NCBI GenBank assembly: GCA_026399755.1 | Contig: JAPLQI010000084.1 | Coordinates: 1 to 40,534 of the forward strand | Direction: 5' to 3' | Source: Pseudomonadota bacterium | Lineage (GTDB): Bacteria > Pseudomonadota > Gammaproteobacteria > Burkholderiales > Chitinibacteraceae | Length of the DNA: 40,534 nt | Shown here: in pieces, positions 19,337 to 32,094 of the stretch | How the letters are laid out: the number at the start of each line of letters is the position of its first letter | How positions within the stretch are numbered: the stretch's first letter is position 1 | Made by a program: the position numbers and the translations under genes | Notes under the pieces: model-generated | The model's input: the letters and a program-made list of their open reading frames with translations, nothing else | Told to the model about the DNA's origin: nothing | Database searches by the model: none

Positions 19337-19470
19337 TTAAGTTGCATTCACCGCCAAGGGCGAGCGCACAGGGCAGGCAGTATCCGGCTTATAGAGCATT
19401 TCTCGCTATTACATACCGTGCATCAAGTCGTTGAAAAGGATACTGCGGGCACTATAGCCCGATGATCAGC
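19337..19470 (-). pseudogene. Decayed duplicate of the 3' end of moeB
   Basis: This stretch repeats the last ~125 bases of the moeB-like gene at a spacing of 125-130 bases, with scattered mismatches and small indels. Shared blocks include CACAGGGCAGGCAG, CTTATAG-GCATTTCTCGC and CGTGCATCAAGT. Read on the minus strand it still spells LIIGL, then a stop, RLDAR, and after a frame change YKPDTACPV, matching LIIGLGR...LLDAR...YKADPACPV of the intact gene. It is not translatable as a unit and is best read as a remnant of a tandem duplication or of an older downstream gene copy. Confidence 0.8.
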
Positions 19471-20895: not shown

Positions 20896-22362
20896 TTACT
20901 TTGCAGGTACGGATACAGGTGCAGCCTTATTTTGCAAAATTTGCTGAACTTTAAGAATATTCAGCGCTTGTTGCAATTGGTAATCGTTTTTAGAAGCCAG
21001 CTCACGCGGGTTTTCTTCCGCTGTTTCGCTGGCGATAGGTTTCAGCTTTTTAATTTCAGTTTTGATTTCCGTCTTGGTTTCAGATGCTGTTTTTTTGTTG
21101 CCAGCCTCTTTATCAGTCGGGTTATCTAAGCGATGCCCTAAATCGGCTTCACGAATGCGGAAGGCGCTTTGTTCCTTACCATTCAGTACTGCTTCTTCGA
21201 CTTCGATATCTGGCGTAATGCCTTTCAACTGAATCGAGCGGCCAAGTGGCGTGAAGTAACGTGCCGTGGTGAGCTTGAGCGCTGTTTTGTTATCGATAGG
21301 CATAATGGTTTGCACAGACGCCTTCCCAAAAGTCTGGGTGCCAACCACGATGGCCCGTTTGTAGTCTTGCAATGCGCCAGCCACAATTTCAGATGCAGAA
21401 GCGGAGCCACCATTTACCAGTACAACCAGCGGGACGTTTTTCACATCTTTAGGCGTGTTCTTAAAGTAGTCATCACGGCCACTTTCACGCAGATAGTTTT
21501 CTTTGCTGGCGGTGAGCTTAATCTTGGAATCAGGCGTGCGGCCTTCGGTGTAAACCACCAAGGCATCTTTAGGCAAGAATGAAGCAGATACACCCACCGC
21601 GCCATTTAACAGACCACCTGGGTTGTTACGCAAATCAAGCACAATACCTTTGAGCGGTACTTTATTTTCTTTATAAAGCGTTTCTATCGCCTGAGCGACG
21701 TTGGCTGTGGTGTGTTCTTGGAATTGCGCAATACGGATGTAGCCATAGCCCGGTTCCGCCATTTTAGACTTCACGCTTTGCACTTTAATCACGGCGCGTT
21801 TTAGCGTCACAATAATGGGCTTACCTTCGCCTTTACGTAGCATGGTGAGGGTCACAGATGTGCCAATTTTGCCGCGCATTTTAGTGACGGCGTCGTTTAA
21901 GGACATTCCTTGAACGGGGGTTTCGTCAATTTTGGCAATAAAGTCACCAGGCTTGACCCCAGCACGATAGGCAGGGGTGTCTTCGATCGGTGAGACCACA
22001 CGCACTAAGCCGTCTTCCATGCTGACTTCTATACCTAGGCCACCAAACTCGCCTTGAGTTTGGATTTGCATATCTTTAAAGGCTTCTGCATCCAGATAAC
22101 TGGAGTGCGGATCCAGGCCAGACACCATGCCTTTGATGGCTTCCGTAATCAGTTTTTTATCTTCAACAGGCTCTACATAGCTTTGTTTGATCAGACCAAA
22201 AACAGTAGAAAATGCACGTAGCTCTTCAACCGGCAGCGGGTTGCCACCCGCATCTTTATCGGCAACGGCATTAAAGGAAAGACTCAGGGCAACGCCCAGA
22301 CCTGCTCCGGCTAGGAGCAAGGCGATTTTTTGGAGCTTTGGTTTTTTTTGGCTCGAGGACAT
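20896..22362 (-). CDS. ctpA: S41-family carboxy-terminal processing peptidase (CtpA)
   Basis: A 488-residue periplasmic protease. Residues 11-34 are a signal/anchor, ~95-185 a PDZ domain (FGGLGIEVS at 106-114) and ~195-390 the S41 catalytic domain. The nucleophile is Ser322 in NGGSASASEI and the general base Lys347 in FGKASV, spaced 25 residues as in E. coli Prc. A lysine/threonine-rich linker and a ~50-residue C-terminal helix follow. Such proteases cleave from hydrophobic C-termini and in other bacteria trim peptidoglycan hydrolases, which fits the upstream envC. The gene starts 30 bases after envC on the same strand. Confidence 0.94.
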   Translation of the reverse strand: MSSSQKKPKLQKIALLLAGAGLGVALSLSFNAVADKDAGGNPLPVEELRAFSTVFGLIKQSYVEPVEDKKLITEAIKGMVSGLDPHSSYLDAEAFKDMQIQTQGEFGGLGIEVSMEDGLVRVVSPIEDTPAYRAGVKPGDFIAKIDETPVQGMSLNDAVTKMRGKIGTSVTLTMLRKGEGKPIIVTLKRAVIKVQSVKSKMAEPGYGYIRIAQFQEHTTANVAQAIETLYKENKVPLKGIVLDLRNNPGGLLNGAVGVSASFLPKDALVVYTEGRTPDSKIKLTASKENYLRESGRDDYFKNTPKDVKNVPLVVLVNGGSASASEIVAGALQDYKRAIVVGTQTFGKASVQTIMPIDNKTALKLTTARYFTPLGRSIQLKGITPDIEVEEAVLNGKEQSAFRIREADLGHRLDNPTDKEAGNKKTASETKTEIKTEIKKLKPIASETAEENPRELASKNDYQLQQALNILKVQQILQNKAAPVSVPAK

Positions 22363-22392: not shown

Positions 22393-23703
22393 CTAGCCTG
22401 CCCACGCCTGCGGGTCGATTGGGCGGCCGTTTTGTCTGAGTTCAAAGTATAAGCCGGAATCAGCCATTCCACCGCTATTCCCACTGGTGGCAATGCTGTC
22501 TCCAGCCTTAATCGTATCACCTACTTGCTTAAGCAGGCTTTCATTTGCTGCGTAAATACTCATGTATCCACCGCCGTGATCCACAATCAGCATATTGCCA
22601 AAGCCACGCAGCCATTCAGCGAACACGACTCGGCCACTGGCAATCGCTTTCACACTTTGACCGGCGGCGGCACGGATAAAGACCCCTTTCCATTGCCCAC
22701 CTTCGCCACGCGCCGTGCCATAGCGGCCGGTTATTTCACCTTTAATTGGTAAGCGCAGCTTTCCTTTGAGTGAGGAAAAAGCTTGGCCAGATTGGCTAGC
22801 ATCTGGGAGAGCCGTGTTGACTTCGGGCTCAGGCTCGGCCTTAGGTGTGGGTTTGCCAGCTGCTTTTGCTTTCGCTTTGGCCGCAGCATTTCTTGCTGCG
22901 CGCTCTCGGGCGTTTTTCTCGGCAAGGGCTTTCGCTTGTGCTGCTTTTTGGGCGCGCTCTAGCTCTTGTCGCTTAATAATGGCATTTAGTTTATCTACTA
23001 GCCCTGTTAGGCGCTTTTCATCGGCGGCTAATTTTTGGATTTGATTGCGCTGGCTGCTAATTTCCTGAGATAGCTTACTGACAATTTCTTGTTTTTCTTC
23101 TTGCTCAGAAACTAGCACTTCTTTTTGTTGTTTTTTTCGCAACGCCAGTTGCTGTAAGGCTTCATTCTTTTGGCGGATATCTTCAGATAGGCGAGATAAC
23201 TCACCCAGCTGTGCTTCTAATTTATTGGCTAATTGCAATTGGGAGCGGCTGATATAGCGATAGTAAGTGAGCTCGCGGCTGACTTGATTAGGGTCTTGCT
23301 GGTTAAGCAGCAAACGCCAAGCTTCAATTTGCCCAGCTTTGTAACGTGTTTTTAGGATCTTTCCTAGCCGATGTTGGCTGGCCTGAATGCCGCTGCGGGT
23401 TCGGCTGATATCATCTTCTAGGCGGGAAATTTCGGCCCTGCTGAGGGCTTGCTCTTGCTGCATGGAGTTGAGGATGCGATTCGCATCAGAAATGGCAGTT
23501 TCTGAATCTTTTAATGCATCGCTGGCTTCACTGCGCTGAGATTCATTGGCGGCCAAATCTTTTTTGAGCTCTTGTAGCTGACCGCGTAAATCTTTTAACT
23601 CGGCCTGTTTGCTGGCTGATTCTTGCTTAGGGGCGGGCGCAGCAAAAACCGGTGTAGTCACTACACCGGTTGTAAGCATTAAAAGAAAAAGCGGTTTAAG
23701 CAT
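22393..23703 (-). CDS. envC: Murein hydrolase activator EnvC
   Basis: A 436-residue exported protein. Residues 1-22 form a signal peptide; ~28-290 are heptad-rich coiled coil followed by an Ala/Lys linker (AARNAAAKAKAKAAGKPTPK); ~318-434 are a LytM/M23 domain. The zinc ligands of active M23 peptidases are missing: the HxxxD region reads KGVFIRA and the HxH region reads LYFELR. EnvC proteins have this degenerate domain and activate amidases at the division site instead of cutting peptidoglycan themselves. The ATG at 23703 lies two bases after the gpmI stop. A 25-bp perfect palindrome occurs inside the signal-peptide codons. Confidence 0.92.
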   Translation of the reverse strand: MLKPLFLLMLTTGVVTTPVFAAPAPKQESASKQAELKDLRGQLQELKKDLAANESQRSEASDALKDSETAISDANRILNSMQQEQALSRAEISRLEDDISRTRSGIQASQHRLGKILKTRYKAGQIEAWRLLLNQQDPNQVSRELTYYRYISRSQLQLANKLEAQLGELSRLSEDIRQKNEALQQLALRKKQQKEVLVSEQEEKQEIVSKLSQEISSQRNQIQKLAADEKRLTGLVDKLNAIIKRQELERAQKAAQAKALAEKNARERAARNAAAKAKAKAAGKPTPKAEPEPEVNTALPDASQSGQAFSSLKGKLRLPIKGEITGRYGTARGEGGQWKGVFIRAAAGQSVKAIASGRVVFAEWLRGFGNMLIVDHGGGYMSIYAANESLLKQVGDTIKAGDSIATSGNSGGMADSGLYFELRQNGRPIDPQAWAG

Positions 23704-23705
23704 TC

Positions 23706-25191
23706 TTATAAGTTTACCAAGGATTTACCTGTCATTTCTTCAGGCTGATCTAAGCCCATCAAGGCCAGCATGGTGGGGGCAATATCGCGTAATGCCCCAT
23801 TGCCACGCGCCACCATGGTTGCTGGACGGCCAATATACACAAATGGAACTTGGTCGGTTGTGTGCTGGGTATGCGGTTGATGTGCTGTGTGGTCAAACAT
23901 CAATTCACAATTCCCATGATCGGCCGTAATCAGAATTTCTCCACCTGCTGCAAGCATGGCGTCAACACATTGTGCTACACACTCATCCAAAGCTTCAACT
24001 GCTTTAACTGCGGCGTCAAAAATACCTGAGTGGCCGACCATATCACCATTGGCAAAATTACAGATAATGGCTGAGTATTGCTTGGATTCGATGGCAGCGA
24101 CCAGCTGACGAGTCACTTCCGGTGCACTCATTTCTGGTTGCAAATCGTAAGTGGCCACTTTCGGAGAAGGCACTAAGATGCGGTCTTCGCCAGCAAATTC
24201 TTTTTCTTCGCCACCGGAGAAGAAATAAGTCACATGCGGGTATTTTTCGGTTTCAGCGATGCGCAGCTGTTTTAAGCCCTGATCGGCAATATATTCACCA
24301 AAGCTGTTTTTAACCTTAGGCTTGTCATAAGCCACCAGCAGTGTTGGGTAGGCCGAGCCGTAATTAGTGGCGGTGCTAAAGGATGCAAATTTCGGCTGAC
24401 GCGCTTTAAAACCATCAAAGCTAGCGTCGGTGAGTGCTGTTGTTATTTGGCGCGCACGGTCGGCGCGGAAATTCATAAAGATCACTACATTCGTCGTTTT
24501 CATCACGGGCATAGGCCGCAGACAACGCATCGGCAGCGTTTACAGCGTGGAATAAGCCTTCGCCTTCAACCATTACTTTGTAGGCAGGCTCTACGCGCTC
24601 CCAACGTTTATCTCTATCCATTGCCCAGTAGCGACCAGTTACTGACACGATACGTGCTGTAGGATGTATGTCACAGACAGCTTGTAGTTTGGCTAGGTAA
24701 ACTGCGGCACTGCGCGGAGGGGTATCTCGGCCATCAAGGAAGGCGTGGATATGAATTTGGCTAACGCCTGCTGTCGCCGCTGCGGCAATCAGCGCATTCA
24801 CATGGGCTTCGTGGCAATGCACGCCGCCATCAGAGATTAATCCTAAAATATGTAGCGTTTTACCGCTGCTGCGTGCTTGCTCGATGGCCGCAGCAAACAC
24901 AGGGTTTTGGCCAATAGAGCCATCTGCAACGTCGCAATCGATTCGGCTGATGTCTTGCTGCAACACACGACCTGCACCAATATTGAGGTGACCTACTTCA
25001 GAATTTCCAAACTGGCCTTTAGGCAAGCCTACGTATTCTTCTGAAGCATTAATCGTGGTCCACGGGTAGGTGGCAAACAAGCGATCTAGGTGTGGTTTTT
25101 TTGCTGCGGCGATGGCGTTATCAGTCGTCTCTTCACGGTAACCGAAGCCGTCTAAAATCAGTAAAAGGACGGGCTTGACGTTATGGCTCAT
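23706..25191 (-). pseudogene. gpmI: Phosphoglycerate mutase (iPGM), interrupted by a deletion and frame change
   Basis: Two frames together cover the cofactor-independent phosphoglycerate mutase, which interconverts 3- and 2-phosphoglycerate. The first (25191 to ~24490) has LILDGFG with Asp14 and the phosphoserine site GNSEVGH with Ser64, and ends its family match at AYARDENDE. The second resumes at VVIFMNFRADRARQIT and runs to the stop at 23706, including ADHGNCE metal ligands. Between them, E. coli GpmI has about 21 residues (FVKATVI...GD) that are absent here, and the frame shifts. This fits loss of ~62 bases at about 24489. Unless it is an assembly error, the enzyme should be inactive. 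It heads the envC-ctpA block. Confidence 0.88.
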
Positions 25192-31936: not shown

Positions 31937-32094
31937 AAAGTCACAAACAAGTGATTGAATTTAATGATTTTTCATTTTAAATTACACGCTAGATAAGATT
32001 TTTAATGGGCTAGCTTATTAATAAAGTAAAATAGCACTAGCTTAAATAAGAGTGCTTACAATTTTTTAACTCACGCATAGCGGAAAAAAGAAAA

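Follow-up and report, generated by a model that had tools for sequence, protein, structure and literature searches.

The gpmI locus of this contig raises a direct question: is a gene for phosphoglycerate mutase broken in the organism, or only in its assembled sequence? The window, meaning the whole 40,534-nucleotide stretch of DNA that was analysed, is the entire contig C88 of the draft G000 (4.95 Mb, 145 contigs).

Two frames and a 50-base gap in gpmI

The break in gpmI is confirmed. The gene is distributed over two overlapping minus-strand frames (Table 1), and neither the ORF list nor alignment with relatives yields a single uninterrupted GpmI frame of ~510 residues at the window locus. The two pieces match consecutive stretches of the GpmI/iPGM family (TIGR01307; Pfam PF06415 and PF01676), whose gene is unbroken in eight Iodobacter genomes. 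Specifically, along the 504 positions of the NCBIfam profile TIGR01307, the 5′ piece covers positions 1–228 with a score of 305.6 bits, below the cut-off of 330.65, while the 3′ piece covers positions 244–504 and scores 361.5 bits, above it. These strong family matches of both pieces, together with an open full-length frame in all 8 relatives (ATG start, open for at least 511 residues in each), exclude a chance split. A sequence-only reading of the window had already placed gpmI in two frames, and the ORF list, the profile pieces and 8/8 relatives bear it out.

Alignment to the 8/8 same-genus genomes reveals one block of exactly 50 bases absent after position 24490, with residues 235–251 (17 residues) lost and the frame shifted, leaving the window copy, in contrast to the GpmI genes of the relatives, with no full-length frame. 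Placement of the junction is ambiguous by 2 bases, which we read from the alignment as 2 bp of microhomology. The sequence-only reading had estimated, from E. coli, a loss of ~62 bases and ~21 residues, figures that the measurement against the genus replaces; its view that tens of bases were lost holds, since the 50-base gap recurs in all 8 comparisons, which also rules out a one-base sequencing slip. It had further stated that reads or relatives with the missing bases in one frame would speak against a real break; all eight relatives carry these bases in a single frame, and the gap is thereby shown to be confined to the present assembly.

Table 1. Coordinates of the gpmI locus, its neighbours and other broken genes of the draft. 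Plain positions refer to the window; the others give locus label, positions and, in brackets, the contig.
Feature	Position	Strand	Description
gpmI locus	23706-25191	-	two frames meeting near 24490
gpmI 5′ part	24421..25191	-	256 aa frame; residues 1-234 native, then 22 out-of-frame residues; ORF list, TIGR01307, iPGM_N 1-152
Deletion junction	24489..24491	-	50 bases absent here, present in 8/8 same-genus genomes; alignment
gpmI 3′ part	23706..24530	-	274 aa, different frame; native from ~residue 252 to the stop; ORF list, TIGR01307
Putative envC (label from the sequence-only reading)	22393..23703	-	unbroken; start 2 bases past the gpmI stop
Putative ctpA (label from the sequence-only reading)	20896..22362	-	unbroken
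dnaK	L222:12073-13991 (C31)		43 bases absent, present in 8/8 relatives; private
hrpA 3′ part, broken	L149:11529-12109 (C23, near end)		19-base deletion (19 bases absent vs G008)
hrpA 3′ part, unbroken	L154:18278-18876 (C28, end)		overlapping contig, same stretch without the deletion
prmB	L259:6659-7503 (C68)		70 bases absent vs G008
Alcohol-dehydrogenase-like gene	L127:124-1208 (C1)		79 bases absent vs G008
ABC-transporter-like gene			2 additional bases vs G008

The next two genes downstream of gpmI occur in the same order as in the relatives G002 and G008. Concerning the suggestion that translation into envC, two bases downstream, may suffer from the break, the window and G002 both have this spacing, but G008 has 107 bases at this point, which makes obligatory translational coupling of gpmI and envC unlikely.

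One way for the locus to retain function would be for the two frames to be translated separately, or through a frameshift, and for the parts to form a working enzyme. Both parts are still conserved, and the ATG of the downstream frame at 24530 overlaps the upstream frame, an arrangement compatible with such a split enzyme; yet the 17 absent residues fall inside the aligned length of the solved iPGM structures 5vpu and 1ejj, no good ribosome site is seen by eye just before the ATG at 24530, and the conservation is explained by the recency of the break. This reading is extremely unlikely.

Selection on the two halves and the search for another mutase

Substitutions in the two halves bear on the age of the break. 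On the window branch since its split from G002, polarization with all outgroups yields 34 synonymous and 7 non-synonymous changes over both halves (6 of unclear direction set aside), and polarization with three outgroups yields 35 and 4 (13 set aside); the G002 branch is similar, with 39 synonymous and 6 non-synonymous changes when all outgroups are used. A simple Poisson bound, which assumes a neutral ratio of 2.7 non-synonymous changes per synonymous change and baselines of 0.12 and 0.2, limits the neutral share of the window branch to at most 8–11%. This pattern indicates that selection acted on both gpmI halves up to a very recent time, so that the break is either very recent or not real; the claim that the event looks recent is in this respect upheld, under the assumed ratios, and a long-standing pseudogene is ruled out on the same grounds. 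As a check for a haplotype switch exactly at the junction, divergence from G002 was compared between the halves: it amounts to 26/702 bases in the 5′ half, the closer of the two, and 66/780 in the 3′ half, without a sharp step where they meet.

Profile searches find no second gpmI in the draft: iPGM_N matches this locus only, and so does the stretch of a relative spanning the deletion site when searched against the draft. The remaining Metalloenzyme matches are DeoB, over its own cut-off, and a protein that we read as lipoprotein-like. The GpmA/dPGM model (TIGR01258) has no match above its cut-off in any of the nine genus genomes (the draft and 8 relatives), the best score in the draft being 35.6 bits against a cut-off of 81.7, whereas 6 of 14 control genomes exceed it. 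ApgM (PF10143), searched in the draft and the controls, has 0 matches in the draft and matches 7/14 control genomes; the relatives were searched with the dPGM model alone. The DUF4147 glycerate-kinase family likewise has no match in the draft. Three histidine-phosphatase genes are present, namely a CobC-like gene, a CobC/GpmB/PhoE-like gene encoding 222 aa on contig C82 and a SixA-like gene, all of them below the curated cut-offs; the CobC-like gene adjoins cobT- and cobS-like genes in our reading of its neighbourhood. By these profiles, gpmI is the sole phosphoglycerate mutase recognised in the draft. The sequence-only reading had held that, if the break is real, the cell must use a GpmA-type mutase and proposed a genome search for gpmA or a second gpmI; neither was found in the draft, and no dPGM match exceeds the cut-off there or in the 8 relatives.

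Passages of Foster et al. 2010 (PMC2964296) report that an E. coli strain without both phosphoglycerate mutases was not obtained, cite the enzyme as essential in several bacteria, and report 16 genomes without any phosphoglycerate mutase, all of them reduced intracellular ones. The same passages name iPGM pseudogenes in Bradyrhizobium sp. BTAi1 and Pseudomonas putida F1, which resemble the present case in being gpmI copies unable to give a full protein (PMC2964296). They differ from it in that P. putida F1 has another full-length iPGM frame, whereas no second mutase is recognised here, and in that the BTAi1 copy retains its first 225 residues only, followed by a transposase (PMC2964296); unlike in that comparison, moreover, the draft has similar breaks in other genes. 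Of the papers searched, none treats phosphoglycerate mutase together with Iodobacter.

If the deletion is real, recent and fixed, a heterotroph that has lost its only recognised mutase would live with glycolysis cut in two or depend on an unrecognised mutase. In the former case the cell would have no known interconversion of 3- and 2-phosphoglycerate, and substrates would feed both halves of the pathway; in the latter, the mutase might be sought among the histidine phosphatases, of which the 222-aa CobC/GpmB/PhoE-like protein on C82 is a candidate. The clean and recent break is compatible with such a loss, but the lack of any dPGM match over cut-off, of ApgM and of a DUF4147 glycerate-kinase match in the draft, together with the essentiality reported elsewhere (passages of PMC2964296), argues against it, as do the similar breaks in dnaK, hrpA and prmB. 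These private breaks elsewhere in the draft make fixed loss a less likely reading, and we regard it, in both its forms, as very improbable. If true, it would put to the test whether a cell can live with no known phosphoglycerate mutase.

Similar frame breaks elsewhere in the draft

Although the draft's listed completeness is 100% and its contamination 1.47%, frame-breaking gaps occur in its gpmI, dnaK, hrpA and prmB genes. An orthologue test was applied to 1,209,263 bases of the draft, six all-N contigs included, and 1,260,000 bases of G008. Among 875 G008 ORFs, 199 have a testable orthologue in the draft sample, and 5/199 are frame-broken, as against 0/201 in the reverse test (Fisher p 0.03), a break rate that rests on 5 events and a comparison in which G008, a single-contig genome, does not match the draft as a control. 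One control from a draft genome, the contig C61 of G002, was available; it gives 0/25 broken and is small. An earlier run on a smaller sample had given 4/139 against 0/138. The five broken genes are gpmI, hrpA, prmB and two genes named by our own reading and compared with G008 only, the alcohol-dehydrogenase-like and ABC-transporter-like genes (Table 1).

The breaks in gpmI, dnaK, hrpA and prmB are private to the draft: hrpA is unbroken in 8/8 relatives, and prmB in 7/8, the remaining genome (G001) having no match over the cut-off. Similar private breaks, as expected of an assembly artefact, are thus found elsewhere in the draft (5/199 testable genes, and dnaK). No second, unbroken gpmI, dnaK or prmB occurs in the assembly, which counts against an artefact; the only other match at the threshold used for dnaK lies below the DnaK cut-off. 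Mid-size deletions number 4 in 213,543 tested bases, from which, as a rough extrapolation, the whole draft could hold ~93 such deletions (95% range ~25 to 237).

A coding-potential scan for frame breaks returned 11 candidates in the draft (1,195,101 bases), 3 in G008 (1,260,000 bases) and 1 in G002 (30,950 bases), recovering 3 of the 5 orthologue-test breaks (gpmI, hrpA and prmB). Family matches for its candidates also led to dnaK as a broken gene and to motD as a probable further one. A looser version of the scan, at 87 candidates in the draft and 80 in G008, has no power. The scan candidate at umuD-umuC (L229) is, in our reading, an ordinary gene overlap, and 5 of the 11 candidates received no assignment. 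At motD (L257:101-1020, C66), the gene apparently occupies two frames whose pieces match profile positions 1–210 and 202–252 of 253; the aligned stretch contains a TAA in G002 and G006.

Within the window itself, gpmI is the only split ORF in the part compared, a point that counts against an artefact: 1/44 ORFs listed against G002 (~10.0–40.2 kb) and 1/29 against G008 (~17.2–40.2 kb), for ORFs of at least 100 aa with spurious antisense frames included. Relative to G002, ~166 bases are absent, in nine pieces, at 31951–32009, and 125 additional bases are present at 19366.

Duplicate contig ends and the origin of the gap

The 3′ part of hrpA occurs twice in the draft, broken near the end of C23 and unbroken at the end of C28. 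The two copies are identical over 142 bases on one side and 136 bases on the other, and between these flanks they differ by the 19-base gap, by 14 mismatches and by one base in length. Among 88 contig ends sampled, 8 pairs have identical starts of 138–141 bases, and end-to-end overlaps of 141 and 102 bases are seen in 2 pairs. Near-end overlaps with 91–99% identity occur in five contig pairs, that of hrpA included. Some contig-end pairs may be ordinary repeats. The largest default k of MEGAHIT is 141, and the contig-end pattern agrees with a de Bruijn graph of k close to 141 in which closely related strains are mixed. The record titles of two relatives contain 'k141'.

Judged from the assembled sequence alone, the gpmI gap is most likely an artefact of mixed-strain draft assembly. 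The draft resembles a short-read de Bruijn assembly in which closely related Iodobacter strains are mixed: at scattered sites its path jumps over tens of bases, with 0–3 bases of microhomology in our reading, and interrupts housekeeping genes (gpmI, dnaK, hrpA, prmB and others) that relatives have intact. The jumps would stem from mixed strains or chimeric joins, the organism itself would keep a whole gpmI, and we infer that the draft itself is a metagenome or mixed assembly. An artefact is favoured over real gene loss by the similar private gaps in other housekeeping genes; it is further supported by the open full-length gpmI of 8/8 same-genus genomes, by the standing of gpmI as sole recognised mutase combined with the essentiality reported elsewhere (passages of PMC2964296), by the unbroken second hrpA stretch with the divergent or identical contig-end overlaps, and by the mostly synonymous substitutions of the window branch.

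False pseudogenes occur in draft or metagenome assemblies. The present case resembles them in that clean, private gaps break the frames of housekeeping genes in a single draft and in its divergent duplicate contig ends, and differs in that the gaps measure 19–79 bases rather than being one-base homopolymer slips. It counts against an artefact that a real deletion, too, can leave 2 bases of microhomology at its junction, and that false joins by a de Bruijn assembler normally require longer overlaps.

The main rival is a real deletion allele carried by part of a mixed population, in which other cells keep a whole gpmI and the assembler reported the deleted form. The divergent duplicate contig ends speak for it, as does hrpA, present with and without its deletion in two copies separated by point changes as well. 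Given the 14 mismatches and one-base length difference, the C23 copy with the deletion may represent a genuine allele from a co-resident strain, which counts against an artefact. The gpmI junction, too, resembles an ordinary short-homology deletion. On the other side, several unrelated housekeeping genes would need such alleles as their reported form, and the other gpmI allele is not found in the assembly. We consider this rival unlikely, and an assembly artefact remains the preferred reading.

The sequence-only reading was therefore right about the break apart from its size, but recent loss with takeover by GpmA is not the best reading, because the draft has no recognised GpmA and its other housekeeping genes include some with private gaps of this kind. 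The gpmI case serves mainly as a warning: gene losses claimed from this draft should be checked against reads.

Two further sequence similarities link contigs of the draft. Positions 1–265 of the window resemble the end of contig C35 (L226) in inverted orientation, with 87% identity over 266 alignment columns. In addition, a dispersed repeat of ~250–340 bases, 85–93% identical, occurs in many contigs, at L129:9780-10034 and similarly in L131, L132, L133, L136, L139, L146, L148, L231 and L245.
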